This document shows, in pieces, positions 17,265 to 52,138 of a stretch of 64,000 nt of DNA. The stretch spans positions 1-64,000 of the forward strand of contig JAUZOD010000017.1 in the NCBI GenBank assembly GCA_030706635.1, given 5' to 3'. The first letter of the stretch is position 1, and each line of letters begins with the position of its first letter. Under the pieces are notes generated by a model. That model worked only from the letters and a program-made list of their open reading frames with translations, had not been told where the DNA came from and did no database searches. The DNA comes from Bacteroidota bacterium (GTDB lineage Bacteria > Bacteroidota > Bacteroidia > Chitinophagales > Chitinophagaceae). Made by a program: the position numbers and the translations under genes.

Positions 17265-17696
17265 ATGGAAAAAAAAGTGGCCATTTTCAGGAAGGAGCAT
17301 TTCAATGCAGCCCATCGTTTGTTCGTTCCCGAATGGTCTGACGAAAAAAACCGCGAGGTGTTCGGCAAGTGCAGTAACCCGCATTATCACGGTCATAACT
17401 ATGAGCTGATTGTGAAAGTTACGGGTGTGCCGGATCCAACAACCGGATATGTGGTTAATCTGTCTGTTTTGTCTGATCTGATCGGAAAGGAGGTGCTGGC
17501 AAAATTCGATCATAAAAACCTGAACCTGGATACGAAGGAGTTCGCCCATCTGAATCCGACCGCAGAAAATATTGTTGTGGTGATTTATGAAATGCTCAGA
17601 AGCAAAATAGATCCGAAGCTGGATCTTTCGGTGAGATTGTATGAAACGGAACGGAATTTTGTGGAATACCCGGTTTCGTTGACGGTTGACGGTTGA
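17265..17696 (+). CDS. 6-pyruvoyl/6-carboxytetrahydropterin synthase family, second copy
   Basis: A 143-residue paralogue of the preceding gene, 29 bp downstream. Ligands are His17, His42 and His44, with Cys36 in the PTPS-like string FGKCSNPHYHGHNYEL; LDHKNLN is represented by FDHKNLNLD, and the C terminus has LYETERNFVEY. The two copies share the same fold and catalytic set but differ clearly, which suggests separate roles (QueD versus a BH4-like pterin enzyme, or subunits of a mixed oligomer). The last seven residues are encoded by a heptad hairpin repeat that begins at 17678, so the native stop codon was probably replaced by the insertion. Confidence 0.9.
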   Translation: MEKKVAIFRKEHFNAAHRLFVPEWSDEKNREVFGKCSNPHYHGHNYELIVKVTGVPDPTTGYVVNLSVLSDLIGKEVLAKFDHKNLNLDTKEFAHLNPTAENIVVVIYEMLRSKIDPKLDLSVRLYETERNFVEYPVSLTVDG

Positions 17697-17751
17697 CCGT
17701 TGACCGCCTTTTATTGCGAATGCGCACCCAAGATCCGTCAACTGTCAACCC
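17678..17751. repeat. Heptad hairpin repeat, copy A
   Basis: Left arm 17678-17706 is four GTTGACN heptads plus G (29 nt); the loop 17707-17734 is 28 nt; the right arm is shortened to 17735-17751. It overlaps the final 19 bases of the second pterin synthase gene and ends 39 bp before folE. Same plan as copies C and D. Confidence 0.85.
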
Positions 17752-17790
17752 TTCATTTCAACGTATTCAACCTAAAACAACCCCCCCACC

Positions 17791-18387
17791 ATGGGATATA
17801 AAAAAATTGAGCACTACGACGAGGCGACCACTTTAAATTTAATGGTCAACTATAAAAATGCCCTGAACCTGCTGGGAGAGAATGCAAACAGGGAAGGGCT
17901 TCAGGAAACGCCCAAAAGGCTGGCTAAAGCCATGCAGTTCCTCACCCAGGGCTATGACCTGGATGCCCATGCCATTCTCAACTCAGCCAAGTTTCATGAG
18001 GATGTGAGTGAGATGATCATCGTGAAAGACATTGAAGTGTATAGTTTGTGCGAACACCACATGCTTCCATTCTTTGGAAAAGCGCATATTGCGTATATCC
18101 CCAATGGCTGGATCACCGGGTTGAGTAAAATTGCCCGTGTTGTGGATGTGTTTGCCCGGCGTCTTCAGGTGCAGGAGCGTTTAACGACGGAGATCCTGCA
18201 TGCGATCCGGGATACCCTGCAGCCGCTGGGTGCGGCTGTGGTGATCGAAGCCTCGCATCTTTGCATGATGATGCGTGGCGTGCAAAAACAGAATTCCGTC
18301 ACCACCACCTCGGCCTTTCACGGAGAATTTCAAAAGAATGAAACACGTAGTGAGTTTATCAAGCTCATTTCAGCAGATCTGGATTAA
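17791..18387 (+). CDS. folE: GTP cyclohydrolase I
   Basis: A 198-residue enzyme that converts GTP to 7,8-dihydroneopterin triphosphate, the shared precursor of folate, BH4-type pterins and queuosine. The zinc and active-site motif [18 protein letters not shown] and the block [23 protein letters not shown] are both complete; the late Cys in [13 protein letters not shown] is also present. It follows the two pterin synthases on the same strand, so substrate maker and users are encoded together. Length is normal for the family. No clear promoter was seen; the heptad hairpin lies between it and the upstream gene. Confidence 0.97.
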
Positions 18388-18530
18388 TGGGATACCCGGA
18401 TCAGGTATCAGACTGTATTTCGTTGCCGGTTGATAGCGGGCCGCGGCGTGTATCCGGACCGCTTCTTAAAATATTCTTTGCTGAATCGGTGCTTTGTGGC
18501 AAATTTGTTTTTTAACCTCCAGTTCTATTT

Positions 18531-19421
18531 ATGAAGCATGCTTATGTTTTCCCCGGACAAGGTTCTCAGTTTCCGGGCATGGGAAAGAATCATTATGATC
18601 AGAGTGCTTTTGCGAAAAGACTATTTGAACAGGGGAATGAAATTGTTGGCTTTCGTCTTTCAGATATCATGTTTCAGGGTTCGGAATCAGACCTGAAGCA
18701 AACGAATGTTACCCAGCCGGCCGTTTTCATGCATTCGGTGATCGCGTATAAAAGTGTGGACGGGGCAAAACCCGAAATGGTTGCGGGGCATTCGCTGGGT
18801 GAATTTTCTGCGCTCGTGGCCAACGGTGTTTTGTCTTTTGAAGACGGACTGCACCTGGTGATCGTTCGGGCAGAAGCGATGCAGAAAGCCTGCATCACGA
18901 ATCCCGGCACCATGGCTGCGGTATTGGCGCTGGATGATGAGGTAGTGGAAAAGATCTGTCTCGAATTACAAAAAGAAACCGGCGAAGTGCTGGTTCCCGC
19001 GAATTATAATTGCCCCGGTCAGTTGGTCGTCAGCGGATCATTAAAAGGCGTTGAGCTGGGTTGCGAAAGGTTGAAAGCGGCAGGTGCACGGCGCGCCGTA
19101 TTGCTTCCGGTGGGTGGCGCATTTCATTCCCCACTGATGGAACCGGCCAGGGAGGAGCTGGCCGCTGCTATTGAAAAAACGACTTTTTATAATCCCACCT
19201 GTCCCGTATATCAGAATGTGGTGGCACGGGCTGTTATGGATAAAGAGGAGATCAAGAAGAATCTGATTGATCAATTGACGGGCCCTGTGCGATGGACCCA
19301 GTCTGTTATGGCTATGATTGCGAATGACGGATCAAATTTCACCGAGATCGGGCCGGGTAAGGTGCTGCAGGGGCTGATCAATAAAATTGATAAAAATGTA
19401 ACCACTTCCGGCGTGGACTAG
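18531..19421 (+). CDS. fabD: Malonyl-CoA:ACP transacylase
   Basis: A 296-residue enzyme that loads malonyl units onto acyl carrier protein for fatty acid synthesis. It begins with the oxyanion-loop motif FPGQGSQFPGMG, has the nucleophile Ser88 in GHSLGEF, and the catalytic His in GGAFHSPLM near residue 198. fabH lies 0.5 kb away on the opposite strand, with an acetyltransferase between. The stop codon overlaps the end of the acetyltransferase gene by 4 bp, tail to tail. Confidence 0.96.
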   Translation: MKHAYVFPGQGSQFPGMGKNHYDQSAFAKRLFEQGNEIVGFRLSDIMFQGSESDLKQTNVTQPAVFMHSVIAYKSVDGAKPEMVAGHSLGEFSALVANGVLSFEDGLHLVIVRAEAMQKACITNPGTMAAVLALDDEVVEKICLELQKETGEVLVPANYNCPGQLVVSGSLKGVELGCERLKAAGARRAVLLPVGGAFHSPLMEPAREELAAAIEKTTFYNPTCPVYQNVVARAVMDKEEIKKNLIDQLTGPVRWTQSVMAMIANDGSNFTEIGPGKVLQGLINKIDKNVTTSGVD

Positions 19422-19885
19422 GGAAGGCCCAGATTGCAGTTCAGCCAGCCGCTCTCTATATTGGCTCCGTATTTCTGATAAAATAAAATGGCGGGTTCGT
19501 TCCAGTCCAGCACCTGCCAGGTCATCCCGTTCAATTGAAGATCCCTGGCTTCCTGCAGTGTTTTTTCGAAGAGCATTTTTCCAATGCCTTTGCCCCGGAA
19601 TTTTTCATTCACAATAAGGTCCTCCAGGTATAGCCGCTGGCCCTTCCAGGTGGAATACCGGATGTAGAAAAGGCTTAGTCCCACTAATTTTTCCTGCTGA
19701 CCCGGTTTGGAAATGGTCGCCACAAAAGCCTGCCATACGGGATTTTTTCCGAATCCGCTTTCTCTGAAATGTTCCAGGGAAACCGTTACGGCGGCTGGCG
19801 CTTTTTCAAAAATGGCCAATTCGCGGACCAGGGCCATCATGTCTGCACAATCGCTGATCACAGCTCTTCTCAGTGTGATTTTCAT
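19418..19885 (-). CDS. GNAT family N-acetyltransferase
   Basis: About 155 residues from ATG 19885; an ATG at 19900 would add five. The GNAT fold is shown by the N-terminal MKITLRRAVISDCADMMALV, the acetyl-CoA P-loop KFRGKGIGKMLFEK and the terminal block WQVLDWNEPAILFYQKYGA. The last block and the early KAPAAV segment resemble diamine (spermidine/spermine-type) acetyltransferases, so a polyamine or small amine substrate is possible. It follows fabH by 27 bp and is probably co-transcribed. Confidence 0.85.
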   Translation of the reverse strand: MKITLRRAVISDCADMMALVRELAIFEKAPAAVTVSLEHFRESGFGKNPVWQAFVATISKPGQQEKLVGLSLFYIRYSTWKGQRLYLEDLIVNEKFRGKGIGKMLFEKTLQEARDLQLNGMTWQVLDWNEPAILFYQKYGANIESGWLNCNLGLP

Positions 19886-19912
19886 CCGCGTTCCTGCCAT
19901 ACCGAAAGCAAT

Positions 19913-20905: not shown

Positions 20906-20909
20906 GGAA

Positions 20910-21595: not shown

Positions 21596-24500
21596 TTGAC
21601 CCGGTATCTGCTTCAGATTATCACTACCACGGTATGGATTATTGCCGTTTCTGTTGCCTTTCTGGCACCGGCAACCCTGTGTGCGCAGACTCCCCGGGAT
21701 ACTTCCCGACTCCCATTTTCAGATAGCCTTCATTTCCCTATTCATGACCGCCGCGGCGATCCGTTAAGCAATCCGGACCGGAATTCCTTCAACCTGAAAA
21801 ACCCGTCGAACCTGCGGGATTCCATCGAATATGATCCGAAAACCAACCGATACTACCTGATGGAAAAGGTTGGTAATAAATACTTTCGCAAGCCCACCTA
21901 CCTCACGTACGAGGAGTTCCTTAAACTCACCGGCCAGCAGTCGGAAGATGATTATTTCAGGGAGCGTGCAAACATGCTGAGCGAGCTTAACCACAAACTG
22001 GATAAGCCGAAGCTCAATGTAAATGACAACCTGTTCAACCGGCTTTTCGGCAATGGTAAAATTGATATCAAACCTCAGGGCAACGTGGACATACTGGCAG
22101 GTTACCAGGGGCAGAATGTGCAGAACCCGACCCTGCCGGAGAATGCGCGGAAAACAGGCGGACTGGATTTCAACATGGCCGCCAATGTGAATGTGCTGGG
22201 TAATATCGGCAATAAGCTGAAACTGCCCATTTCCTACAATACCCAGGCTACGTTTGACTGGATGAACCAGCTTAAGCTGGAATATACAGGCAGTCCCGAT
22301 GATATCATCAAAAAAATTGAGGTCGGCAATACTTCTTTTACCACCAAAAGCACGCTGATGTCCAGCCAGCAATCCCTGTTTGGTGTCAAGACCCAGCTCC
22401 AGTTCGGAAAATTGTACATCACTGGGGTACTGGCCAGCGAGCGTTCCCAAAGTCAGTCTACTTCCCTCCAGGGAGGCGCTGCCACCACCAACTACCAGTT
22501 TAAGGCGGATGATTATGACGAAAACCGGCACTTCCTGCTGGCGCAGTATTTCCGCGCGAATTATAACAAGGCCATGTCCAACCTTCCCATCGTCACTTCA
22601 CAGGTTCAGATCCTGCGGATCGAAGTGTGGGTGACCAACCGCAATGGCGCTACTACCCAGGCCCGCCAGGTGGTTGGCTTAATGGATCTGGGGGAAACAA
22701 ATCCTTATAATACCAATGTGCATCCCCAGACCGGGTTACCCTACCCATCAAATGATGCCAACGATCTTTATCGCCGGATCATCAACGATCCGTCCAGCAG
22801 GAGCTCAGACCAGGTGATCAGCAAACTGACTTCCGTGGGCCTTACCCAGGTACAGGATTATGAACAGGTGTATGCCCGCAAACTCAACGCCACAGACTAT
22901 ACCTTTAATCCTCAGGTCGGGTTTATTTCACTGAACCAGGTGCTGCAACCCAATGATGTGCTGGCTGTGGCTTACCAGTACAGTTTCAACGGCAAGATCT
23001 ACCAGGTCGGTGAATTTTCCCAGGACGTTCCACCCGATACCACACGGGGGTTTAACCCGGGTGCGCAAAAAGTGATCTATCTGAAATTGCTGAAAGCCAC
23101 GTCCCAGCGGACCAACCTTCCCATCTGGAACCTGATGATGAAGAACGTGTACACCCTGAAAACAGGAACGGGCACCTATCTTTCCAATATCCAGCAGGCG
23201 GGCTTTCAAATGAATGTATTGTTTGATGAGCCGAGCAAAGGCACCAAAAGATACCTGCCTGCAGGTGATAAAGAAGGCATTCCCTTAATATCGGTGCTTA
23301 ACCTGGACAGGTTGAATGCGCACAACGATCCCCAGCCGGATGGCGTATTTGACTACCTGGAAGGATTCACCATCGTCTCGTCGCAGGCCAGGATCATCTT
23401 TCCCCTCCTGGAACCTTTCGGGCGGGACCTGGATTCCCTGGCATTCCACAACAGTCAGAGCATTAAAGGCAGTTATATTTTTCAGCAGCTTTATGATACC
23501 ATCAAATCGGTGGCGCAAACTTTTGCCAATGTGGACCGGTACTATATCAGCGGCGTAGCCAAGGGACAGACCAGCACGGATGTTTCCCTCGGCGCCTTCA
23601 ACGTGCCACCGGGATCGGTTGTCGTGACCGCCGGCGGCCAAACGCTACGGGAGAATATTGACTACGTGGTGGATTACAACAATGGTACGGTGAAAGTAAT
23701 CAATCAGGCAATCCTCAATTCCGGTGTGCCGGTGAATGTGCAGTATGAAAATAATGCCAGTTACGGAACACAGCAAAGGGGATTCATGGGTTTGCGGCTC
23801 GACTATCTCGCCAAGAGCACCGCCACCCAGTCGCTGACTCTCGGCGGTACGATTGAAAGATTGAATGAGCGTCCTTTTTTTACCAAAACAAATTATAACG
23901 AAGATCCGATCCGCAATACCATGTACGGAGCAGATGCCAACTTCCGTTCGCAATGGCCGGGACTGACGCGTTTGATGAATAAGCTTCCTTTTTATTCTTC
24001 CCGCGAAGTGAGTACCATCAGCGCAGTAGGAGAAGCGGCATTCCTGAAGCCTGGTCATCCACCGCAGATTGGCAAGGGAAACAGCGGGGTTATTTATATA
24101 GATGATTTTGAAGGATCCACCAGTTCCATTGATCTGCGCTTTCCGCTCACCAGCTGGGCCCTGGCTTCCACGCCGGCGGGCGACGGGCTTTTCCCGGAAG
24201 GCAGCCTCAATAATTCCCTGGATTACGGGTTCAACCGTTCCAAGATTGCCTGGTATAATATCGAACCCACCCTGCAGGATAAAACCAATTCGGCCAATCC
24301 GGTCCGGGATTACGAAAATTTTGGCGATCCGAGGATCTCGCCCATTAATATCCAGCAACTGTTTCCACAAATCACACCGGAATTCGGCCAGGCACAGCTG
24401 ATCACTTTCGATGTTGCTTACTATCCTTCCGAAAAGGGACCTTATAATTTTGACGCCCGCCCGGGCAGCCTCCTGCCGGATGGGAAACTGGCCAATCCGC

Positions 24501-27500
24501 AGAACCGCTGGGGTGGTATCATGCGATCCATAGACCAGACAGACTTTGAAACCAGCAATGTGCAGTATGTTGAATTCTGGATGCAGAGTCCCTTCCTGAC
24601 CAATCCCGGTGGCAGCGGGGGACAATTATATTTTGATCTGGGCAGTGTATCGGAAGATATCCTAAAGGATGGAAGAAGACTTTTTGAAAACGGGTTAAAC
24701 ACGCCCTCCAGTCCCGCCGCCGTAGACAGCACTTCTGTGTGGGGAAGGGCGCCGGCCAACCAGATCCAGGTAACCAATGCCTTCAGCAATGATCCGGGAG
24801 ACCGCCCTTACCAGGATGTGGGTTTTGACGGACTGGATGATGCCGGCGAGCAATCCAAATTTTCCAATTACCTCGCCAAGCTGGCGGCTGCTTACGGAAC
24901 CGGCTCCGCCGTTTATCAGAAAGCTGCTGGCGATCCATCCGGCGATGATTTTCTCAATTACCGCGATCCTTCTTACGACCAGTCGAAAGCAGGTATCCTT
25001 GACCGTTATAAAAACATAAACAGTCCCCAGGGCAATTCGCCGATTGCTTCCGGCAATTCAACCTACGTGAACGCGTACACGCTTTATCCCGATCAGGAAG
25101 ATCTTGATCACGATAATACCATGAACGAGCTGGAAGAGTATTTTGAATATAAAGTAAACCTCGTGCCATCCCAGCTTGCGGTGGGGCAGAACTTCGTTTC
25201 CGATAAGAGGGATTTTGTCGGAAGCAACGGAGTTCCCCAAACCTGGTACCAGTTCCGGATTCCGATCAACGCCTACACCCAGAAAGTGGGGAATATCCCG
25301 GATTTTAAATCCATCCGGTTCATCCGTATGTTCCTGACCGGTTTTACGGATTCCGTGGTATGCCGCTTTGCAGAATTCCAGCTGATCCGGGATTCCTGGC
25401 GCAATTTCAATTATGAACTGGATACCACGGGGCAGTATATCACCATTCCCGCGAACACCCCGACGGATTTCAATGTAACGGCCGTGAACATCGAGCAGAA
25501 CGGTTCGAGAACGCCCGTACCTTATGTGATTCCGCCGGGCATTCAACGTCAGCAGCAGCTCAGTACCAATAATGTAAACCTTTTGCTAAATGAACAGGCA
25601 CTGAGTTTACAGATCTGTAATCTGGCCAAGGGCGATGCCCGCGGCGTATTTAAAAATACCAACCTGGATCTGAGACGTTATGGAACCATGGATATGTTCA
25701 TTCACGCGGAAGGCGCCGGAATTATAGATAATCTAAACGATAACGATCTCTATGCGGTGATCCGTTTAGGGAGTGATTTCATCAATAATTTTTACGAGGT
25801 TAAAATTCCATTACGGAAAACGAGGTGGGGGGCAACGATCGACACCGATATCTGGCCGGATTCCAATAACCTGAACCTGAACCTGGATAAACTTATTCAA
25901 TTGAAGACCGACCGGAATGCGTCGGGAAGCTCAACGCTGTATTACCAGGAGATTGATTCGGCAACCCACCGGTCTTATGCCATAGTGGGTAATCCGAATA
26001 TCGGACAGGTGCAGGCCTTTTTCCTGGGTGTGCAGAATGCGAGCCAGAACAGCGTCTGCACCGAAGTGTGGTTTGATGAACTCAGGTTATCGAATATCAA
26101 TGACCAGGGTGGATATGCCGCTACCGGCCGGGTGGATCTGAAGATTGCCGACTTCGGCACCATGTACATGTCTGGCAGTTTCCGTTCCGTGGGCTTCGGA
26201 AGTATTGATCAGAGCATCAACCAGCGTTCGCTGAGCAACAACACCCAGCTGGACGCAGCCACGAACCTCGAGCTTGGAAAACTGCTTCCTAAAACCACAG
26301 GCCTGTCTATTCCTTTTTATGCCAGCGTTTCCAAGAGCATCAGTGCGCCGGAATATGATCCCTACGACCTGGATATTAAACTCAAGGATAAAATCGCTGC
26401 GGCTACAACCAGGGCGCAAAAAGATTCCATCCGGAATCAGGCGATAGATGCTACGACCATATCCACTTTCAATTTCACCAATGTCAGAAAAAATAATACT
26501 TCCGGAAAAAAACTCAAACTCTGGAGCCTTGAAAACTTCGACCTGAGTTATTCCTATACGCGATCGGACCATCACAATCCCATCGCCAGTGAAGACAACC
26601 TGATTAACTATAAAGCGGGCCTGGGATATAATTTTACAGGATTGCCCAAATACTGGGAGCCATTCAAAAAAATGATCAGGTCCAAGAGTCCCTGGTTCAA
26701 ACTCGTCAAGGATTTCAACCTGAACCCCGTTCCTGCGGTACTCACTTTCCGGGCGGATGTGAATCGACAGTTTGGCGCCTACCGATCGCGGAATCTTGAC
26801 GGTGGCAAAGAAGTTCTTCCGGAAACCTTTAATAAATTTTTTACGTTCGACAGGTTATATGTTGTGCGCTGGGACGTCACGCGATCGTTCAACGTGGATT
26901 TCAGTGCGACCAATAAAGGCTGGGTGGATGAGGACAGCGGAAGGCTGGACAAAGCGGGAAGGAAAGACATGTGGAAGAATTTCTGGAAAGGCGGAAGAAC
27001 AATCCACTATCAGCAAACGGCGAATTTTACTTACACCGTTCCCACCAATAAAGTGCCGGCGCTTGACTGGACAAATTTCAGGCTCGGGTACGGATCTTCT
27101 TATCAGTGGACTGGCGCGTCCACGCTGGCCACGGATCTGGGTAATGCCCTTCAGAACACGCAGCAGAAGGTTGTTACCGGCGACCTTAATTTTTCCAGAC
27201 TGTACAGTAAATGGCGATTGTTACGTGAACTGGATCAGCAGGCCTCTCCGAATGCCCCCTCTTTGCCTGGCAAAAAGGTTGACAGCAGCAAGCAAAAACG
27301 ATCGGCCATAGAAAGCGGCGACCAGAAACATCTGTCGGGTATCATGAAAAGTGTCGCCCGGCTGCTGACCTCTTTAAAGGATGTAACGATCAATTATTCG
27401 GAAAATTCTGCTTCCAGCATTTATGGGTATAAAGACAGTACCCAGGTGTTGGGTATGGATCTTAAATCGGGAGAACCAGGCTTCGGCTACATCTTTGGTG

Positions 27501-28801
27501 AACAGCCCGACACGGGATATGTGAACCGCCTGGGTAAAAAAGGACTGCTCACCACCGATACCTTATTTAATTTTCAGAATCAGGCCAGTTATAATCAGAT
27601 ACTCACCCTGGCAGCTCAGATCCAGCCCATAAAAGATCTGAATATAACGGTTAATGTAAACAAGAGCTTTGGTAAGAATTATACGGAACTGTATAAGGAT
27701 ACTGCCGGCAGCAATACTTTTGCGCGGTTAAATCCGTACACGGCGGGAAGTTTCAGCATCAGTTTTATTTCCGTGAAAACATTGTTCGGTGGTTTTAAGC
27801 CGAATGAAGTGACTTCCACGTTCAAAACTTTTGAAAGCTACCGGCAGATCATTTCCAGCAGGCTGGGTAATCAGAATCCTTATTCAGGCGGAGCCACTAC
27901 GGCAGACGGTTACGCCAAGGGATACGGGAAGTATGCACAGGATGTGCTGATTCCGGCCTTTATTGCCGCCTACAGCGGCAAGAGCCCCGATAAAATTGCA
28001 TTGATCAATGAAGACAATCCCAACATTAAATTCAATCCGTTCTCCGGCTACCTGCCCAAGCCGAACTGGCGGATCACCTACAATGGACTAAGCCGCATAC
28101 CCGGCATGGATAAAATATTTACCAATTTCAGTGTCAGCAATGGATATACGAGTACACTCAGCATGAACAGTTTCAATACTGCGCTTACTTATCAGGATCC
28201 ATTCGGAATCCGTCAGCCGGGATTCATTGATACGCTGACGGGAAATTTTGTTCCTTATTTTCTGGTTCCGAATATTTCCATCAGCGAGCAATTTTCACCG
28301 TTGATTGATCTGGATATGCAATTTGTAAATCAGTTGCTGGCTAAATTCAGTTACAGCAAATCCAGGCAGCTGAGTCTGAGCCTGATTGACTACCAGATGA
28401 GTGAAACCCGTTCAACGGAATATACAGTCGGGCTGGGATTTCGTAAACGGGGCCTTCCGCTTCCTTTTAAGTTAACCCTTCCGGGCAAGAACGGGCCCTC
28501 GGGCAGGCTGGAGAATGACCTCACCCTCAGGCTGGACGTAAGCTACCGGGATGATGCCACCTCCAATAGTTATCTCGATCAGAACGACGCGCTTCCGGTC
28601 GGCGGTCAGCGGGTGGTGAGCATCTCACCTTCGATTGACTATGTGATCAACAACCGCATCAATATTAAATTCTATTTTGATCAGCGGAAAACGGTGCCCA
28701 AGATTTCGAGTTCTCCGCCGGTATCCACCACAAGGGGAGGTATCCAGATCAGGATCTCTCTGGCAGAAGTGGCTGCGGGAAAACCGAAGGCGACGAAATA
28801 G
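21596..28801 (+). CDS. sprA: Type IX secretion translocon protein SprA
   Basis: A 2401-residue outer-membrane protein, the giant beta-barrel pore of the type IX secretion system, also called Sov. An N-terminal signal peptide ends near LCAQ. Early blocks match the family: RDSIEYDPKTNRYYLMEKVG, LTYEEFLKLT and the plug-type region GNIGNKLKLPISYNTQATF, followed by long alternating strands and GFDGLDDAGEQSKFSNYL-like loops, ending in a barrel strand rich in RISLAEV. The start is a TTG at 21596, preceded by an SD-like GAGGA; no ATG near it preserves the signal peptide. It exports proteins such as the CHU_C-domain protein at 30371-32989. A heptad repeat begins right after the stop. Confidence 0.97.
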   Translation: MTRYLLQIITTTVWIIAVSVAFLAPATLCAQTPRDTSRLPFSDSLHFPIHDRRGDPLSNPDRNSFNLKNPSNLRDSIEYDPKTNRYYLMEKVGNKYFRKPTYLTYEEFLKLTGQQSEDDYFRERANMLSELNHKLDKPKLNVNDNLFNRLFGNGKIDIKPQGNVDILAGYQGQNVQNPTLPENARKTGGLDFNMAANVNVLGNIGNKLKLPISYNTQATFDWMNQLKLEYTGSPDDIIKKIEVGNTSFTTKSTLMSSQQSLFGVKTQLQFGKLYITGVLASERSQSQSTSLQGGAATTNYQFKADDYDENRHFLLAQYFRANYNKAMSNLPIVTSQVQILRIEVWVTNRNGATTQARQVVGLMDLGETNPYNTNVHPQTGLPYPSNDANDLYRRIINDPSSRSSDQVISKLTSVGLTQVQDYEQVYARKLNATDYTFNPQVGFISLNQVLQPNDVLAVAYQYSFNGKIYQVGEFSQDVPPDTTRGFNPGAQKVIYLKLLKATSQRTNLPIWNLMMKNVYTLKTGTGTYLSNIQQAGFQMNVLFDEPSKGTKRYLPAGDKEGIPLISVLNLDRLNAHNDPQPDGVFDYLEGFTIVSSQARIIFPLLEPFGRDLDSLAFHNSQSIKGSYIFQQLYDTIKSVAQTFANVDRYYISGVAKGQTSTDVSLGAFNVPPGSVVVTAGGQTLRENIDYVVDYNNGTVKVINQAILNSGVPVNVQYENNASYGTQQRGFMGLRLDYLAKSTATQSLTLGGTIERLNERPFFTKTNYNEDPIRNTMYGADANFRSQWPGLTRLMNKLPFYSSREVSTISAVGEAAFLKPGHPPQIGKGNSGVIYIDDFEGSTSSIDLRFPLTSWALASTPAGDGLFPEGSLNNSLDYGFNRSKIAWYNIEPTLQDKTNSANPVRDYENFGDPRISPINIQQLFPQITPEFGQAQLITFDVAYYPSEKGPYNFDARPGSLLPDGKLANPQNRWGGIMRSIDQTDFETSNVQYVEFWMQSPFLTNPGGSGGQLYFDLGSVSEDILKDGRRLFENGLNTPSSPAAVDSTSVWGRAPANQIQVTNAFSNDPGDRPYQDVGFDGLDDAGEQSKFSNYLAKLAAAYGTGSAVYQKAAGDPSGDDFLNYRDPSYDQSKAGILDRYKNINSPQGNSPIASGNSTYVNAYTLYPDQEDLDHDNTMNELEEYFEYKVNLVPSQLAVGQNFVSDKRDFVGSNGVPQTWYQFRIPINAYTQKVGNIPDFKSIRFIRMFLTGFTDSVVCRFAEFQLIRDSWRNFNYELDTTGQYITIPANTPTDFNVTAVNIEQNGSRTPVPYVIPPGIQRQQQLSTNNVNLLLNEQALSLQICNLAKGDARGVFKNTNLDLRRYGTMDMFIHAEGAGIIDNLNDNDLYAVIRLGSDFINNFYEVKIPLRKTRWGATIDTDIWPDSNNLNLNLDKLIQLKTDRNASGSSTLYYQEIDSATHRSYAIVGNPNIGQVQAFFLGVQNASQNSVCTEVWFDELRLSNINDQGGYAATGRVDLKIADFGTMYMSGSFRSVGFGSIDQSINQRSLSNNTQLDAATNLELGKLLPKTTGLSIPFYASVSKSISAPEYDPYDLDIKLKDKIAAATTRAQKDSIRNQAIDATTISTFNFTNVRKNNTSGKKLKLWSLENFDLSYSYTRSDHHNPIASEDNLINYKAGLGYNFTGLPKYWEPFKKMIRSKSPWFKLVKDFNLNPVPAVLTFRADVNRQFGAYRSRNLDGGKEVLPETFNKFFTFDRLYVVRWDVTRSFNVDFSATNKGWVDEDSGRLDKAGRKDMWKNFWKGGRTIHYQQTANFTYTVPTNKVPALDWTNFRLGYGSSYQWTGASTLATDLGNALQNTQQKVVTGDLNFSRLYSKWRLLRELDQQASPNAPSLPGKKVDSSKQKRSAIESGDQKHLSGIMKSVARLLTSLKDVTINYSENSASSIYGYKDSTQVLGMDLKSGEPGFGYIFGEQPDTGYVNRLGKKGLLTTDTLFNFQNQASYNQILTLAAQIQPIKDLNITVNVNKSFGKNYTELYKDTAGSNTFARLNPYTAGSFSISFISVKTLFGGFKPNEVTSTFKTFESYRQIISSRLGNQNPYSGGATTADGYAKGYGKYAQDVLIPAFIAAYSGKSPDKIALINEDNPNIKFNPFSGYLPKPNWRITYNGLSRIPGMDKIFTNFSVSNGYTSTLSMNSFNTALTYQDPFGIRQPGFIDTLTGNFVPYFLVPNISISEQFSPLIDLDMQFVNQLLAKFSYSKSRQLSLSLIDYQMSETRSTEYTVGLGFRKRGLPLPFKLTLPGKNGPSGRLENDLTLRLDVSYRDDATSNSYLDQNDALPVGGQRVVSISPSIDYVINNRINIKFYFDQRKTVPKISSSPPVSTTRGGIQIRISLAEVAAGKPKATK

Positions 28802-28933
28802 TTGATGGTTGATAGTTGATGGTTGATGGGAGATCCTGTGGCGCAAATTGCGAAAGAATCGGGGTCCTTTGTTTCGGTTGACAGTTGACAGTTGACGGTT
28901 GACCGACTTCAGGTGCGAATCCGGAATATATAA
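28802..28933. repeat. Heptad hairpin repeat, copy B (composite, truncated)
   Basis: Just after the sprA stop come TTGATGG/TTGATAG heptads (28802-28830). At 28877-28905 a full 29-nt arm of GTTGACN heptads is followed by a loop in reverse orientation (18 of its first 18 bases match the complement of the copy C loop). The loop ends at 28933 and the second arm is missing; the stop codon of the next gene starts at 28934. Confidence 0.75.
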
Positions 28934-37864: not shown

Positions 37865-37950
37865 GTTGACGGTTGACAGTTGACGGTTGACGGCCTTTTA
37901 TTTCGGATTCGCACCTGAAGTCCGTCAACCGTCAACTGTCAACCGTTATC
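37865..37950. repeat. Heptad hairpin repeat, copy C
   Basis: The clearest copy. Left arm 37865-37893 (29 nt, four GTTGACN heptads plus G), loop 37894-37921 (28 nt) and right arm 37922-37950. The innermost 25 bp of the stem (37869-37893 with 37922-37946) pair perfectly. It lies between the promoter of dprA and the 3' end of the PorE-like gene, where it could stop transcription. Confidence 0.9.
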
Positions 37951-37963: not shown

Positions 37964-39871
37964 TTATTTAATAATCACCTTCAGCTCCGTTCTCCTGTTC
38001 TTCCCACGGCCCTCTTCGGTGTCGTTGCTGCTGATGGGTTCTGTATCGCCATATCCTTTGAAGGAAAGCCGCCTGCCGTCAATGCCTTTTGATTTTAAAT
38101 AATTTACGACGGCCTTCGCGCGATTTTCAGAGAGTAACAGGTTATCTGCCTCTTTGCCCACATTGTCCGTATGGCCATTGATCTGGACAGAAACCTGCGG
38201 GTTTTCATTCAGAAGCCGGATCACTTCACCGAGTTCCACCTGGGATGCCGGTTTCAGATCGAACTGATTTACGTCGAAAAAAATATTTTTAAGCACGATG
38301 CTGGCGTTGGCTTCAATGGGCTGGAGCGGGATATCAATATGGTAGGTGGAATCGGGGGATTCTTTTCCCAGCATGAAATTACCGGAAAAGAAAAGATAGC
38401 CCCTGCGGGTTACGTTGAATGCATAATCTTTTCCAATGGGAAGGGTCGTGAGATAATTTCCGGTCTCGTCCGTTTGCAGGTTGCTGATCACTTCTTTGGA
38501 AGCCAGATCGATCAGTTCCACGGAAGAAGGAAGTCCCTTTCCTGTTTTCTGGTCAAACACCTTTCCTTTTACCCAGAGGGTTCTCGCGGGCCGCACATCG
38601 GTCCTTAATTCAAAGGAATACAGATCGAGTTGCCCGCGGCTGTCTGCCCGGTCGCTCGCATAATAAGCGGTTTTCCCATCCGCGGCAACAATCAGGCTGC
38701 CTTCATTTTCAATGGTATTGATGGGGTATCCCAGGTTCTCGGGTTCGCCCCATTTGCCATCAGCCGTTTTGCGAACCATAAACAGGTCGTCGCCGCCATA
38801 ACCGGGCAAGCCATTGGATGTAAAGTACAGGGTCATATTATCCGCATGGATAAAAGGAGCGCTTTCATCTCCGGCGGTATTGATGGAAGGCCCCATATTT
38901 TCCGGCGGGCTCCAGCTCCCATTCTCCCGGCGATGGCTCACATAGATATCATTCCCGCCATAACCTCCGGGTCTGTTGCTGGTAAAATATAAATCCCTTT
39001 TATCCGGTGAAAGGGAAGGTGCGGATTCCCAGAATTCCGTATTGAAATTCTTTCCCAGATTTTCCGGTGTGCTCCAGCCCTGGGGGGTGAGATAGGAAAT
39101 ATAAAGGTCGCAGCTGCCAAATCCATCGGGGAAATTACAGCCGGTAAAAATAAGCCATTGTCCATCCTGCGAAATGTTCAGAGCCCCTTCATTGTTATTA
39201 CTATTGATATTGCCCACCAGCGCTTTTGCTTCTGACCAGCCACCGGGCAGGCGGTGAGACTCGAAAAAGTCTTCGTTAAATCCCTTGACCCGGCGGGTAT
39301 AAATCAGGGTGTTGCCGTCGAGGGCGATCGTCGGATAATATTCGGATACTGCTGAATTGATACTGTCGCCCATGTTCTGCGGTTCGAACTTGTAATCGTC
39401 CGCATTTTTTTTAGCGGCATAGTCCAAAGCAAACTGGTATGTTTTCGTTCGGTACGCGGAAGCTTTTAATGCAGATTCATTGAGGTTGGGAATGCTTTTA
39501 AACCGGTTGACGGCATCCAATGCTTTTTGGAACTGACCCAGGCCGGCCAGGTTAATGGAATAGGAGAGATCGAAATCAATAAAATAAATACTGTCAATCG
39601 CTTTTGCCTTTTCGTAATTTTCTATGGCAGCCGTATAATTTTTCAGTTCCCCGTACATGCCCGCCATGGAGAGATAAGCATCCTCGAAATGATCATCCAG
39701 GCGAACGGCTTCTTTGAGGGAAGCGATCCCGTCTTCAAATTTTTCATCCCTTGCCTGGTCCTGCGATTTCAAATACCATTTGGCTGCTTTCTTATTCACT
39801 TTTGAAGGATCATATTGTGCATGCGCCTGAAAAAGAGGGAAAAGCAGGAGGATAAGACAGAATTTCTTCAT
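37964..39871 (-). CDS. PorE-like OmpA family protein (TPR, PD40 propeller, CRD, OmpA)
   Basis: About 635 residues from ATG 39871. A signal peptide (MKKFCLILLLFPLFQAHAQ) is followed by TPR-like helices (about 25-150), PD40 beta-propeller repeats (YPTIALDGNTLIY, APFIHADNMTLYFTSNG), a carboxypeptidase-regulatory-like domain (WVKGKVFDQKTGKGLPSSV, near 440) and an OmpA peptidoglycan-binding domain (INGHTDNVGKEADN, SFKGYGDTEP). This is the domain order of PorE, the T9SS peptidoglycan anchor. PorE itself is a lipoprotein, while this protein has no lipobox Cys, so it may be a paralogue. A TACCTTTG element lies 15 nt upstream. Confidence 0.88.
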   Translation of the reverse strand: MKKFCLILLLFPLFQAHAQYDPSKVNKKAAKWYLKSQDQARDEKFEDGIASLKEAVRLDDHFEDAYLSMAGMYGELKNYTAAIENYEKAKAIDSIYFIDFDLSYSINLAGLGQFQKALDAVNRFKSIPNLNESALKASAYRTKTYQFALDYAAKKNADDYKFEPQNMGDSINSAVSEYYPTIALDGNTLIYTRRVKGFNEDFFESHRLPGGWSEAKALVGNINSNNNEGALNISQDGQWLIFTGCNFPDGFGSCDLYISYLTPQGWSTPENLGKNFNTEFWESAPSLSPDKRDLYFTSNRPGGYGGNDIYVSHRRENGSWSPPENMGPSINTAGDESAPFIHADNMTLYFTSNGLPGYGGDDLFMVRKTADGKWGEPENLGYPINTIENEGSLIVAADGKTAYYASDRADSRGQLDLYSFELRTDVRPARTLWVKGKVFDQKTGKGLPSSVELIDLASKEVISNLQTDETGNYLTTLPIGKDYAFNVTRRGYLFFSGNFMLGKESPDSTYHIDIPLQPIEANASIVLKNIFFDVNQFDLKPASQVELGEVIRLLNENPQVSVQINGHTDNVGKEADNLLLSENRAKAVVNYLKSKGIDGRRLSFKGYGDTEPISSNDTEEGRGKNRRTELKVIIK

Positions 39872-49393: not shown

Positions 49394-50068
49394 ATGAAAA
49401 TAACTTTTTCATCATTCATTGTCCTCTTATTTGTTGCCGGAATGTTTTCCTGTAAGAAGGATAATTTCAATTACCCAAAGGGTACCGTGGCAGGATCAAA
49501 AATTATCTATTTTCCCACTATTGCCATCAAAGAGGATAAGTTTGTGGCTGTTACTCAGGGAGCCGGCTATGCTGATTCCGGGGCTACTGCTATTTTGAAC
49601 GGAACTCCGGTAACGTATACAACCAGCATGACTATTGATGCAAATACTGCTCCGGGCGTTTACAGGATCAATTATACGGCTGTCAACGCTGAAGGGTATA
49701 GTGCCAGTGATGCCCGTGTTGTTGTGGTGGTTCCTACTGCAGTTGCTGCTGACCCTGTTGTTGCAGCGAACGATTTTTCCGGTACTTATTTAAGGGCTGC
49801 TACCGGAGTTACCAGTACCTGGACCAAAATCGCCAACGGTGTATATACTGTTGAAAATCCCGGAGGTAGTTCTGGTGTTGGGTTAAGAGTCATCGTGACA
49901 AATTATTCTGGAACCAGTATTGATATGCCGTCCCAGGATAGTCCCGATTTCGGTGGAACCGTTAGCAGCACAGGTGCTACTTATAATACAACTCCGCCAG
50001 CCACATATAGCTGGGTATTTAATGCACCGGGTTATGGCACATCAACAAGGACTTTTGTAAAACAATAA
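49394..50068 (+). CDS. Surface lipoprotein with DUF5011-like immunoglobulin fold
   Basis: A 224-residue lipoprotein from ATG 49394 (signal ending GMFSC, Cys20). The middle contains a bacterial Ig-like unit with the phrase YADSGATAILNGTPVTYTTS and PGVYRINYTAVNAEGYSAS, as in DUF5011-type domains; the C-terminal half is a separate strand-rich domain (TYLRAATGVTSTWTKI). Such proteins often accompany SusC/D pairs as extra ligand-binding or surface-glycan-binding parts. An open frame begins at 49238 inside susD, but without a signal peptide at that end. It starts 16 bp after susD. Confidence 0.85.
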   Translation: MKITFSSFIVLLFVAGMFSCKKDNFNYPKGTVAGSKIIYFPTIAIKEDKFVAVTQGAGYADSGATAILNGTPVTYTTSMTIDANTAPGVYRINYTAVNAEGYSASDARVVVVVPTAVAADPVVAANDFSGTYLRAATGVTSTWTKIANGVYTVENPGGSSGVGLRVIVTNYSGTSIDMPSQDSPDFGGTVSSTGATYNTTPPATYSWVFNAPGYGTSTRTFVKQ

Positions 50069-50078
50069 AATTCTAATC

Positions 50079-50570
50079 ATGCGAAAAATATTGACGATAT
50101 CGTTAATCTTCTTTACGGGGATTTATTTCTTGTCTTCCTGTAAAAAAAGTTCTTACGATCCGGGCACCACGAAATCGCCGAATGCTTCAAACGGCTGGTG
50201 GGTGACTTATTCTGTAGGCGGAGCTCCGATATATGGCCCTGTTTTTTTCAGTACTTACAACACCGCTGCCGATAAGGCGGATTCCATGTGGATTGACGAT
50301 CTTCAGAATTTCTGGCAGTTTAAAGGCAAGGTGGCGCTGGATTATAAGACTCTCACATTTAGTAATCCGAGTTGTCAAAATGTATATTATACTTCAGATG
50401 CAAAGGTTGCCAATGGAAAGATCCTGACAAAGGGCGGTCATTCGAAAAGCGGAGTCATAACAGATAGTATCTATTTTGAAATTCAGTTTTCTGATGATAC
50501 CACGCCGTATGGAACCACATATCAGGTCAGTGGCACGGCAAGAACAGGATTTATTGAAGATGACTACTAA
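50079..50570 (+). CDS. Small lipoprotein, possible lipid-binding (Lipid_bd-like) family
   Basis: A 163-residue lipoprotein (Cys21 in FLSSCKK) with a compact domain: GWWVTYSVGGAPIYGPVFFS, ADSMWIDDLQNFWQFKGKV, then CQNVYYTSDAKVANGKIL. The pattern resembles the lipid-binding-like proteins found at the ends of SusCD operons in Bacteroidota. It is the last gene of the operon, 10 bp after the previous one, and a strong terminator follows. The ligand is unknown and the family call is moderately sure. Confidence 0.78.
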   Translation: MRKILTISLIFFTGIYFLSSCKKSSYDPGTTKSPNASNGWWVTYSVGGAPIYGPVFFSTYNTAADKADSMWIDDLQNFWQFKGKVALDYKTLTFSNPSCQNVYYTSDAKVANGKILTKGGHSKSGVITDSIYFEIQFSDDTTPYGTTYQVSGTARTGFIEDDY

Positions 50571-50599
50571 AATAAACGGGCATGCTAACCGCTTAATAA

Positions 50600-50628
50600 A
50601 AAAAGACCTTCCGCTGGAGGGTCTTTTT
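50600..50628 (+). terminator. Rho-independent terminator of the susCD operon
   Basis: Arms AAAAAGACC and GGTCTTTTT are perfect complements, extended inward to a 13-bp stem with one G-T pair and a GCT loop. The 3' arm ends in a T run. It lies 30 bp after the last lipoprotein gene. Confidence 0.85.
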
Positions 50629-50666
50629 ATTTTGCGCATGATGTCGGCCGGTGTTTGATGAAATTG

Positions 50667-50674
50667 TACTTTTG
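50667..50674 (+). promoter_or_regulatory. -7 promoter element TACTTTTG
   Basis: Perfect TAnnTTTG, 20 nt before the ATG at 50695. The identical octamer stands before the glycosyltransferase (63041-63048). Confidence 0.55.
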
Positions 50675-50694
50675 AGGTATTAAAACATATCTGA

Positions 50695-51003
50695 ATGGCA
50701 GAGCCGGCAAATAATCAGTTAAACATAGAGATCAGCGAGGAAGTTGCAGAAGGTGAATATGCTAACCTGGCCATCATCACGCACAGCCATGCGGAGTTCG
50801 TCATTGACTTTGTTAACGTAATGCCGGGGACTCCAAAGAGTAAGGTCAAGTCCCGCATCATCTTCACTCCCCAGCATGCCAAGCGTTTTATGAAAGCCCT
50901 CATGGAGAATGTGAGTCGTTTCGAAACGGCTAACGGGAAAATACAAGACCTGGAAGACGTTCAGATTCCCATGAATTTCGGCGGCCCAACGGCACAGGCC
51001 TGA
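50695..51003 (+). CDS. DUF3467 domain protein
   Basis: A 102-residue cytoplasmic protein matching DUF3467: EGEYANLAIITHSHAEFVIDFVNVMPG and ARIIFTPQHAKRFMKAL-like central blocks, here SRIIFTPQHAKRFMKAL. The family is highly conserved among Bacteroidota and has no firm function; a ribosome-side or housekeeping role is suggested by conservation only. It is monocistronic, with its own promoter and the susCD terminator before it. Confidence 0.9.
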   Translation: MAEPANNQLNIEISEEVAEGEYANLAIITHSHAEFVIDFVNVMPGTPKSKVKSRIIFTPQHAKRFMKALMENVSRFETANGKIQDLEDVQIPMNFGGPTAQA

Positions 51004-51025
51004 CCAGGGTGTAACCGACCGGTAT

Positions 51026-51718
51026 TTACATCATCCCCGAATCTGCAAAACTGAAATAGCCCTCATGGCTTACAATGATATGGTCAATCACCTTAATGTC
51101 CAGGTATTTGGCGGCCTCCCTGATCTTATAGGTAAGATCCTCATCCGCTTTGCTGGGCCTGAGATTTCCGGAAGGATGATTATGACAAAGGATCACATTC
51201 ACCGCATGCGTTTCCAGCGCCTTTTTTAAGATCACCCTCGGATCTGCAACCGTTCCGGTGATCCCTCCCCGGCTGACCACCTCAAAATGGTTCACCCGGT
51301 TGGCCTGATTCAGGAATAATACGGCGAAAACTTCCCGGCTATTGTCCTGCAGGGTCACCCGGAGCCAGTCGGCGACCTGACGGCTATCCCGGATGACCGG
51401 CTTATCGAGAGCCCCCATGGTATGCCGACGGCGGCCCAATTCCATCGCAGCTAAGATCACCACCGCTTTCACCGGGCCTATACCCTTAATTTTCAGCAGG
51501 TCATGAATGCTGAGCTTACCCAGTTCATTCAGGTTGTTTTTTACGGAAAATAATAGTTCCTTGGCCAGATCTACCGCATTTTTTTCGTGCGTTCCCTGAT
51601 TGATCAGGATGGCCAGCAACTCAGAATCGGTGAGGTTTTCCGCATTTTTACTAAGTAACTTTTCGCGGGGCCTGTCATCCGCCGCCCAGGTCTTAATTGA
51701 GTAGTTTTGCGCTTGCAT
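51026..51718 (-). CDS. radC: RadC family JAB domain protein
   Basis: A 230-residue UPF0758/RadC protein. The N-terminal helix-hairpin-helix (LSIHDLLKIKGIGPVKAVVIL) precedes a JAB1/MPN metalloprotease-like fold with the zinc motif CHNHPSGNLRPSKADED. The family was named for DNA repair, but its role in repair is doubtful; many members accompany mobile DNA. The gene converges on the DUF3467 gene with 22 bp between stops. Confidence 0.92.
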   Translation of the reverse strand: MQAQNYSIKTWAADDRPREKLLSKNAENLTDSELLAILINQGTHEKNAVDLAKELLFSVKNNLNELGKLSIHDLLKIKGIGPVKAVVILAAMELGRRRHTMGALDKPVIRDSRQVADWLRVTLQDNSREVFAVLFLNQANRVNHFEVVSRGGITGTVADPRVILKKALETHAVNVILCHNHPSGNLRPSKADEDLTYKIREAAKYLDIKVIDHIIVSHEGYFSFADSGMM

Positions 51719-51831
51719 GCTTCAATGATAGGCACTATTTTTATGCCTTACAATCCCTGTTCGTGGTATATTTCGGCAAGGGCCGGGCTACCCGCACCGG
51801 TATCCTAAATTGAAAATCTAATTTAATATCC

Positions 51832-52035
51832 ATGAAACCGAAATCTACACTCTCTGCCATTGGCGGCTGGAACTCCTTCTTCTTCTGCATTGGTATGTAC
51901 CTGGTTGCTTTATTCTTTTCCATTTTTGTTTGTTCGTCTATCTTTTATGTGGTGAACAGCAATAAGCAGTCAGAAAAAAATACCTATACCGTTAAGTCGA
52001 CCGCAAAGCCTGAACTCGCTTCACTTAACAAGTAA
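51832..52035 (+). CDS. Small single-span membrane protein
   Basis: A 67-residue protein with one hydrophobic span (about 14-42: FFFCIGMYLVALFFSIFVC and onwards) and a Lys/Ser-rich tail (SEKNTYTVKSTAKPELASLNK). The amino acid pattern and the clean start after an AT-rich leader support a real gene. No family is recognised. A heptad hairpin follows 17 bp downstream. Confidence 0.6.
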   Translation: MKPKSTLSAIGGWNSFFFCIGMYLVALFFSIFVCSSIFYVVNSNKQSEKNTYTVKSTAKPELASLNK

Positions 52036-52052
52036 ATTTTTCTAAACTTTTT

Positions 52053-52138
52053 GTTGACGGTTGACTGACGACGGTTGACGGCCTTTGTGTGCGAATCCGC
52101 ACCTGAATTCCGTCAACCGTCGTCGGTCAACCGTCAAC
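52053..52138. repeat. Heptad hairpin repeat, copy D
   Basis: Left arm 52053-52081 and right arm 52110-52138 pair at 28 of 29 positions; the loop 52082-52109 is 28 nt and shares 21 of 28 bases with the copy C loop. It sits between the small membrane protein gene and the prs promoter. Confidence 0.9.

Follow-up and report, generated by a model that had tools for sequence, protein, structure and literature searches.

Introduction

Heptanucleotide tandem repeats dispersed between genes are known from cyanobacteria as the STRR repeats; they are not known to form inverted arms around a conserved core. Direct repeats of a second heptamer, TAACTGA, occur in Beggiatoaceae, Cyanobacteria and some Bacteroidetes. 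The word provides stops in all three frames and is hence tolerated at ORF ends, and the corresponding intergenic regions in close relatives of two species are described as free of obvious repeats (PMC4679880, in part). Repetitive sequences of the REP type, in the GTAG and CGTC superfamilies, have stems of 5–13 bp and a one-sided unpaired tag, and CGTC REPs lack a dedicated transposase and are reported from Bacteroidetes (PMC3733652, in part). Template switching between inverted repeats has two reported products, arm homogenisation and spacer inversion (PMC8604942, in part).

The heptad palindromes described here are a REP-like repeat of a new form. Like REPs, they are short, extragenic, present in many copies and mostly downstream of genes; unlike REPs, they have a 32-nt core flanked by two arms of 7-nt tandem repeats, for a total of about 86 nt (compared with part of PMC3733652). 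Their arms resemble the TAACTGA repeats in being intergenic 7-nt tandem repeats, whereas TAACTGA arrays are nearly all direct, with most of those in the main species immediately before a start codon, and have no common core or hairpin plan in the portion of the account compared (PMC4679880). The BrickBuilt MITE of Porphyromonas gingivalis, also an intergenic element of Bacteroidota with tandem repeats and inverted ends, differs in its 23-nt units, its distance of 49–591 nt from genes and its promoter elements (PMC4596501, in part). Template switching likewise homogenises the arms of short inverted repeats and inverts the spacer between them, but it is a process of mutation that acts on inverted repeats already in place and not a dispersed family (PMC8604942, in part). 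Titles and abstract openings, which leave subscription journals mostly uncovered and so give weak evidence of novelty, describe neither a heptad-armed palindrome nor this family.

Heptad Palindromes in the Window

The window is a stretch of 64,000 nt from the genome of a Bacteroidota bacterium (the source genome), placed in the Chitinophagaceae on the strength of its sister species, and contains the following elements:

17678–17749, plus strand: copy A; left arm of four GTTGACN heptads (17678–17705), core (17705–17736) and right arm of two heptads (17737–17749)
28801–28829, plus strand: first half-element of copy B; four GTTGATN heptads, no inverted partner seen
28877–28924, plus strand: second half-element of copy B; four GTTGACN heptads and the first half of the core, without a right arm
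37865–37950, no strand assigned: copy C; complete element, core 37892–37923
52053–52138, no strand assigned: copy D; complete element, mirrored TGACGACG block in both arms, core 52080–52111

The original prediction had assigned all four copies a 29-28-29 plan. Copies C and D follow it and are near-perfect hairpins by RNA folding against shuffles (z −12.76 and −14.55, respectively). Copy A departs from it in its two-heptad right arm (z −4.58), and copy B (28801–28924) consists of two half-elements in the same direction that, taken whole, fold no better than shuffles (z −0.20), so that the latter is no hairpin of this plan. An Rfam search of the window returned a tRNA as the sole match above the gathering score, and no known RNA family for the hairpins.

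The TGA stop of a PTPS-like ORF (17265–17696) upstream of copy A falls inside its left arm, and the first half-element of copy B overlaps the stop codon of an sprA-like gene (21596–28801) by one base. An OmpA-type gene (37964–39871, minus strand) has copy C at its 3' end, upstream of dprA, and copy D separates a small ORF, which ends at 52035, from a PRPP synthetase gene (52173–53123). A T run follows some copies, copy D among them.

A Dispersed Family with a Core of Nearly Constant Length

A model search of the whole source genome (4.58 Mb) gave 147 matches at 81 or more places, a lower bound because 150 of the 2028 first-look candidates were scored; the dispersed family proposed from the window is real. 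On the better strand, 67 of the 81 places measure exactly 74 nt, twelve of the other 14 measure 67–79 nt, and two measure 98 nt. Forward and reverse counts of the motif GTTGACNGTTGAC are 162 and 118, compared with 27 and 9 for the backwards-read pattern; these counts, together with the genome-wide model matches, rule out a chance origin.

The usual element comprises four GTTGACN-type heptads, a 32-nt core and four inverted heptads, so that the arms are direct tandem 7-nt units inverted around a common core. The distance from GTTGAC to GTCAAC, innermost to innermost, is 32 nt, or 39 nt from the next heptad out, in every hairpin listed by a scan that allowed 28–44 nt in the window and 30 short source-genome loci. 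This core equals the previously described 28-nt loop plus two bases on each side. Its length is nearly constant across the family, and the genome-wide check of loop length thus agrees with the fixed loop of the original prediction. That loop is, however, itself quasi-palindromic (GGACTT..AAGTCC, then TGCG-AATY-CGCA, with a mismatched middle), which makes the element one long imperfect stem. The commonest arm has the innermost heptad and three more (right arm 45/80, left arm 41/80). Single copies appear to predominate; one locus of a sister species (L237 of G006) holds a pair about 107 nt apart.

Position at Gene Ends

As claimed from the window, the elements lie at gene 3' ends. None of the 81 copies is inside a called gene of the source genome, according to home-made gene calls that missed the small ORF before copy D and therefore listed this copy as divergent. 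Among the facing stop codons, 81 of 88 are within 30 nt of the outer arm or inside the arm (23 of these inside), and 69 of 88 are within 15 nt or overlapping. Convergent gene pairs flank 24 of 81 copies, compared with 7 of 40 gaps in the window.

Along the inward strand of the GTTGACN-type family, a TGA turns up in each of the three frames within about three heptads. Of 160 source-genome arms, 130 have all frames stopped in the inward direction and 1 in the outward direction.

TTTT occurs within 12 nt after 15 of 88 sense directions (17%, against a background of 9.5%) and on the non-gene side in 11 of 72, so the family as a whole does not show the hairpin and immediate U tract of an intrinsic terminator. 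At one locus (L081, copy 3), the palindrome is itself preceded by a GC stem and T run of the conventional kind. Insertion into terminator loops was rejected as a general rule, with one apparent case (L224) and pairing beyond the arms that does not exceed that of shuffles.

Sites and Cores in Sister Species

Two sister species, G006 and G019, carry similarly planned hairpins at several of the gene ends that are occupied in the source genome; at these common sites the palindrome plan is kept, and the word (GTTGAC or GTTGAT) and the core are replaced. The named comparison genomes are MAGs, and that of G019 has N gaps beside the arms. In a survey of occupied and empty sites, filled sites are over-represented, since most target stretches had been picked at hairpins. 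Six sites are free of this bias (three at L081, three at L077): in G006 three are filled and three empty, and in G019 two are filled, three are empty and one falls at a contig end. Copies 1 and 2 of L081 and copy 3 of L077 are clean empty sites in both species, with no target-site duplication visible by eye in their diverged flanks.

The source genome and G006 share 15 sites, drawn from 57 G006 copies, with flanks 73–83% identical; one of these pairs is contradicted by the survey, and one is the half-element B. Independent insertion would give 1.7–4.6 shared pairs for 2500–1000 available sites, and 9.2 (maximum 20) if there were 500 sites only. L092_1998/L135_3245 and L109_1958/L276_1295 are shared in the pair comparison and empty in the survey.

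The cores at the 15 shared sites are alike at 20.8 of 32 positions, compared with 21.0 for random family members. Shared cores of G019 are slightly closer, both to the source genome (23.8 vs 21.3, 6 pairs) and to G006 (23.6 vs 22.0, 9 pairs). The G019 ortholog of copy D has a core identical at 30 of 32 positions and different arms, with four GTTGAC heptads on the left and four GTTGAT heptads on the right, which amounts to a block change of one arm. A further pair, between G006 and G019 (L234/L280), has cores identical at 30 of 32 positions when one is reversed and at 22 when read directly, and is one clear inversion; core orientation is mostly weakly defined, and most other apparent inversions are uncertain.

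Mirrored Arms

The change shared by the two arms of copy D had been read as compensatory and as a sign of selection. The change itself is genuine but atypical of the family: over 21 positions in the source genome, 75 of 269 left-arm departures are mirrored in the opposite arm. With three quarters of the departures unmirrored, the argument for selection lacks support. At nine positions chosen for their score of zero, none of 64 departures is mirrored. Mirrored change clusters at the positions that define the word type (GTTGAC, GTTGAT or GATGAC) and at N, and other point changes are mostly unmirrored.

About four in five mirrored heptads carry the same word (182/233 in the source genome, 137/170 in G006 and 65/84 in G019), against 53%, 39% and 46%, respectively, expected for independent arms. 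Where the left word is not GTTGAC, the counts are 41/67, 97/128 and 40/52; the scan template favours GTTGAC in the innermost heptad pair, which somewhat inflates the mirror counts. The concentration of mirrored change at the word-type and N positions is more consistent with one arm being copied onto the other in blocks than with compensation step by step. The arms change in 7-nt steps, in keeping with the originally suggested growth by heptad slippage.

Search for a Copying Enzyme

The original prediction called for a search for a RAYT-type transposase, and none was found in the source genome or in five heptad-rich relatives (G005, G006, G015, G017 and G019). A profile search with PF01797 gave no match in the source genome (99.93% complete) or in these five and G022 (58–86% complete), although the profile matches in 26 of the 39 genomes searched; two members of the genus without heptads, G003 and G012, also have no match. 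A one-sided GTAG or CGTC tag is absent, the arms being symmetric heptad arrays, and CGTC appears, repeated, in the paired right arm. RAYT mobilisation was rejected on the absence of PF01797 from the source genome and its heptad-rich relatives.

Comparison of copy C with phage records gave no match, and with plasmid records only 25–30 nt of heptad arm in two records. A 19-nt core edge is present in four viral contigs with no further core and no heptad arrays nearby, and looks like chance; in 16 viral contigs with heptads, no family core adjoins. A phage or plasmid origin was rejected on these comparisons. Integron attC sites were dropped as candidates, since their core-site consensus does not match.

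The nuclease background was also considered. SbcD is half of the hairpin nuclease SbcCD; the source genome has no SbcD match, 1 of 24 genus genomes has one above the cut-off, and 10 others have weak matches below it. Loss of SbcCD was discarded as a sufficient cause, because most heptad-free genomes of the genus also have no above-cut-off match. A missing SbcD is possibly a permissive background for palindromes.

Origin of the Palindromes

The observation made on the window is thus confirmed in part, and its interpretation holds in part. The evidence supports non-coding, non-autonomous, dispersed elements of REP/MITE-like character at gene 3' ends. We give about an even chance to the account in which a gene-end palindromic repeat is spread by a copying process other than RAYT and then rewritten in place by slippage and template switching. 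New copies would arise by that process, and survivors would be those that land on gene ends, where harm is presumably small because the inward strand gives TGA in every frame within about three heptads. Slippage would then alter the arms in 7-nt steps and homogenise words within an arm, and template switching between the arms during replication would copy one arm onto the other and could flip the core. In transcripts, the hairpin may also act on mRNA 3' ends or on translation. The mirrored words, the one inverted core and the blockwise arm change fit gene-end insertion, slippage and template switching. Template switching within one hairpin does not account for the core divergence between the source genome and G006: as shared cores are no closer than random ones, exchange between copies or re-insertion would also be needed. 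The searches made found no copying enzyme, which counts against the mechanism, as does the want of a visible target-site duplication at the clean empty sites, even though their flanks have diverged.

The palindromes might instead be selected RNA hairpins at gene ends, that would terminate transcription in both directions, protect mRNA 3' ends or slow translation termination, with the hairpin kept while the sequence drifts. Stop codons adjoining both sides (69/88 within 15 nt or overlapping), the share of convergent pairs (24/81 vs 7/40), the very stable folds of copies C and D, and sites common with G006 despite flanks of 73–83% identity agree with this reading, as does a report that REPs of E. 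coli lower translation when a stop codon lies within 15 nt (PMC12306157, in part). We nevertheless rate it as unlikely, given that TTTT follows only 15 of 88 sense directions, that the majority of arm departures are unmirrored, that neither sister species has a copy at several sites, and that copy 3 of L081 already follows a GC stem and T run. Somewhat more doubtful is a classical MITE, mobilised by a DDE or other transposase, in which the heptad arrays would serve as terminal inverted repeats. Dispersed copies with a common core, inverted ends and precise positions, and presence that differs between sister species, would suit such an element; arm words that differ wholesale between species, unlike transposase-bound ends, palindromes elsewhere in the genus that follow the same plan with neither word nor core in common, no autonomous partner in the comparisons made, and no visible target-site duplication at the clean empty sites, whose flanks are diverged, would not.

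High-copy extragenic palindromes at gene 3' ends also recall REP/BIME elements moved by RAYT (Y1 tyrosine transposase), and one genome, G014, combines 16 model matches with three PF01797 matches. With PF01797 absent from the source genome and the six genomes named above, and with symmetric arms in place of a tag, this origin is very improbable. Equally hard to credit are plain heptad microsatellites lying by chance in inverted pairs. Pure direct arrays do exist, with at least 13 GTTGACA units in the source genome and others in viral contigs, but the words are mirrored across the core, and the common core between arrays in about 80 copies refutes this explanation.

If the preferred account of copying, slippage and template switching is true, the palindromes would be natural recorders of the latter two processes, each locus showing which arm was copied from which, together with a flippable core, at many parallel loci per genome. 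REP-like spread and persistence without a known transposase would become directly testable, and all-frame stops would simply explain the success at gene ends of tandem repeats whose period is not divisible by three. The palindromes are a useful case of a repeat whose form outlives its sequence.

Palindromes in Other Members of the Genus

Tentatively, and with more doubt than confidence, a genus-wide class may be proposed that is defined by plan and not by sequence: a palindrome at gene ends, with arms of 7- or 8-nt tandem words and stops commoner on the inward strand. Neither word length is divisible by 3, so that a few units would close all frames entered from either side. Each species would rewrite its word genome-wide and sites would outlast sequences, the elements being spread or overwritten by a copying or conversion process and not by a transposase tied to one end sequence. 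Of 24 period-7/8 palindromes in the surveyed stretches, 7 were known before the stretches were chosen (copies C and D of the window, two at L305, one at L313, the first at L314 and the last at L317), which biases their density. The source genome uses GTTGAC and GATGAC, G006 and G019 use GTTGAT, and G017 uses GCYTAAA and GTTATGN. Elsewhere in the genus, palindromes are built from other words of 7 or 8 nt around cores that are unrelated and differ in length, and some occupy the same sites.

Structure and setting of the window copies

Copies A to D, the members of the heptad-armed palindrome family found in the window, are organized as follows.

Copy A, 17678-17749: four left and two right heptads; at the end of a PTPS-like gene, upstream of GTP cyclohydrolase I
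Copy B: two half-elements in the same direction, right arm missing; flanked by a sprA-like gene and by an ORF that has no Pfam match
Copy C, 37865-37950: complete (four GTTGACN-type heptads, a 32-nt core, four inverted heptads); at the end of an OmpA-type gene, ahead of dprA
Copy D, 52053-52138: complete, with the same composition as C; between a small ORF (stop 52033-52035) and PRPP synthetase

The 29-28-29 plan proposed for all four copies in the original prediction is complete in C and D, whereas A has a short right arm and B consists of half-elements only. The core is a quasi-palindrome in which pairing is possible between GGACTT and AAGTCC and, flanking AATY, between TGCG and CGCA, leaving a mismatched middle. 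As the core is thus not a loop, C and D fold as one long stem (-61.6 kcal/mol, z -12.76, and -67.8 kcal/mol, z -14.55, respectively), and the supposed 28-nt loop is instead a part of that stem. Copy B folds no better than shuffled sequences.

Two adjacent 6-pyruvoyl tetrahydropterin synthase-like genes lie at 16741-17696 of the window, followed by GTP cyclohydrolase I. At 11494-11758 there is an inverted repeat with no sequence relationship to the heptad family; its 37-nt arms are 97% complementary, lie 191 nt apart and lack a 7-nt period.

Copy number and distribution

In the genome from which the window comes (the source genome), GTTGACNGTTGAC occurs 162 times in forward and 118 times in reverse orientation, against 27 and 9 for the same pattern read backwards. 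A covariance model built from 12 copies gave at least 147 strand matches at 81 or more distinct places, a lower bound because 150 of 2028 candidates were scored; on the better strand, 67 of the 81 measure exactly 74 nt, and the family is dispersed genome-wide. A template scan of the stretches around the model places, with two places left out, yielded 83, 81 and 80 copies at scores of at least 28, 29 and 30; the 81 were used for gene context and the 80 for the later arm analyses. Since this template fixes core length, the constancy of length rests on a scan in which it could vary over 28-44 nt and on the model-match lengths. Two long-core variants (L085:1969-2066 and L111:2004-2101) give 98-nt matches; the L085 variant has about 56 nt between its arms, with both core ends kept and a different centre.

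A strict core-plus-arm pattern was found in only two species, both Chitinophagaceae MAGs, of an 84,980-species collection from which the source genome is possibly absent. Among 39 genomes, the source genome, G005, G006, G015, G017 and G019 are heptad-rich; G014 has 16 model matches, and G022 has 21, yet its heptads are not above control. The RAYT-type (Y1) transposase profile PF01797 was found in 26 of the 39, including G014. It had no match in the source genome, which upholds the predicted absence of such a transposase, nor in G005, G006, G015, G017, G019, G022 and the genus members G003 and G012. SbcD (TIGR00619), half of the hairpin nuclease SbcCD, exceeded the cut-off in one of 24 genus genomes, with weaker matches below it in 10 others and none in the source genome (99.93% complete), G005, G006, G017 and G019.

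Position relative to genes and stop codons

None of the 81 copies lies within a called gene. Their contexts are tandem (45), convergent (24), divergent (11) and unknown (1); the window's own 40 gaps comprise 27 tandem, 7 convergent and 6 divergent. For 88 gene ends facing a copy within 150 nt, the stop codon is inside the outer arm in 23 and precedes it by 0 to 30 nt in 58, giving 81 of 88 in line with the predicted location at gene 3' ends. At 69 ends the stop is inside the arm or no more than 15 nt from it. The copies may also act in RNA. E. coli REPs are reported to reduce translation when within 15 nt of the stop codon (PMC12306157), and most copies here are equally close. Of 88 sense directions, 15 have a TTTT run after the copy, as do 11 of the 72 remaining directions (background 12-mers, 9.5%); with so few sense directions carrying one, the majority of copies do not qualify as textbook intrinsic terminators.

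The 28-nt arms contain stops in all three frames in 130 of 160 cases when read inward and in 1 of 160 when read outward. The all-frame stop argument was previously made for TAACTGA heptamers (PMC4679880). Those heptamers are direct, whereas the palindromes here add inverted arms, a conserved core and replacement of words between species, a combination that our literature search did not find in print.

Mirrored words in the arms

The heptad words are GTTGAC, GATGAC and GTTGAT, with GTATAT, GTGGAT and GTAGAT being rarer. Heptads at mirrored positions agree in word in 182 of 233 instances in the source genome (53% expected), and in 137 of 170 (39%) and 65 of 84 (46%) in the sister species G006 and G019; the template used in the scan is biased towards GTTGAC for the innermost heptads. 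With left-hand GTTGAC heptads excluded, the mirrored word is identical in 41/67, 97/128 and 40/52 cases, respectively. By contrast with whole words, 75 of the 269 deviations from the left-arm consensus, counted over 21 positions, have a counterpart on the right, and 0 of 64 do at nine positions picked post hoc for zero score. Covariation in the 12-copy alignment is weak: of 500 shuffles, 18 reached its score, 58 its paired-cell count and 79 its both-side pair changes. The shared change originally noted in copy D is real, a single altered heptad block mirrored across both arms, but it is not representative of the family. The overall picture is of arms that form, or are re-formed, as mirror images of each other and decay afterwards.

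Comparison of sites between species

Fifteen copies of the source genome could be paired with a G006 copy through one-to-one matches of both flanks; one of these pairs (L092_1998) scored empty in a separate occupancy comparison. Their cores are identical at 20.8 of 32 positions (random pairs, 21.0) and their arms at 39.9 of 56 (35.9). Cores at shared sites agree at 23.8 versus 21.3 positions between the source genome and G019 (6 pairs), and at 23.6 versus 22.0 between G006 and G019 (9 pairs). With unassigned heptads left out, GTTGAC accounts for 379 of 542 scored heptads in the source genome and GATGAC for 78; in G006, GTTGAT accounts for 213 of 385 and GATGAC for 2. The G019 ortholog of copy D shares 30 of 32 core positions but differs in its arms, with GTTGAC on one side and GTTGAT on the other; N bases adjoin an arm there. 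The cores of the G006/G019 pair L234/L280 agree at 30 of 32 positions in inverted and at 22 in direct alignment.

A palindrome scan of the prs-upstream regions of 24 loci and the OmpA-downstream regions of 23 loci returned heptad-armed palindromes above threshold in the source genome at both sites and in G041 at OmpA, and in no others; the scan missed the prs-upstream copy of G019, presumably because its arms differ. By eye, G017 and G014 have heptad arrays at the OmpA site.

In a sample biased towards occupied sites, copies of the source genome corresponded to 16 occupied and 5 empty sites in G006 and to 5 and 3 in G019. Those of G006 gave 14 and 5 in the source genome and 9 and 1 in G019, and those of G019 gave 6 and 0 in the source genome and 10 and 0 in G006. 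Both sister species lack an element at three sites (L081 copies 1 and 2, L077 copy 3), with no target duplication visible. At the last of these, inspection by eye shows that the stops of two convergent genes abut in G006 (TGATTA); in the source genome both stops are retained, with the element between them. Two "empty" targets (L110, L276) retain a short remnant with a single heptad on each side, which is what collapse of a palindrome would leave. The remnant at L110, in the source genome, is a minimal, perfect hairpin with a single heptad in each arm plus TTTT; it lies opposite a full element at G006 L231_3380 and is probably a collapsed copy. At L224:1780-1950 in G006, an element sits in what looks like the loop of a conventional GC stem; the opposite stretch in the source genome, L106, has a short GC hairpin only.

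In the best-supported reading, a putative copying route would bring a REP-like palindrome to gene ends, where slippage and template switching would then remodel it. Arm homogenisation and spacer inversion, both signatures of template switching, are described for inverted repeats (PMC8604942).

Other palindromes with a period of 7 or 8

At some of the same sites, G017 (GGTTATG/AGATATG and GCYTAAA), G015 (GCCTAAC and GTTATGA) and G005 (GCTGAAC) carry palindromes or arrays built from very different heptads. A survey of the window and of stretches of up to 20 kb from this genus and order gave 33 palindromes whose arms reach 18 nt or more, 18 with period 7, 6 with period 8, 1 with period 10 and 8 with none; among shuffled arms, about 1.3% show a period of 7 or 8. 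The 24 with period 7 or 8, seven of them already met before the stretches were chosen, come from the source genome, G005, G006, G014, G015, G017 and G041. Only palindromes without these periods were found in G009, G020 and the order-mate G024, and a single one without a period in one E. coli stretch. The stretches of ten genus-mates (G002, G003, G007, G008, G010, G013, G022, G039, G042 and G043) and nine order-mates contained none. Stop codons are in excess inward in 17 of the 24 and outward in 5, with 2 ties, and all-frame stops occur inward in 9 and outward in 5 (shuffled mean 2.7), a bias that is suggestive only, since families recur among the 24.

In G014, 60 kb (L314-L316) hold three period-7 palindromes, three of period 8 and three further ones with arms of 35-74 nt, their sequences being varied. 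The source genome has a second dispersed palindromic repeat at L077:9990-10140 (C35), composed by eye of 8-nt words of the TGGTAATG/TGCTGATG type. Partial copies occur in L064, L069, L085, L087, L097, L099 and L106, and the repeat is also matched in G006 and G019.
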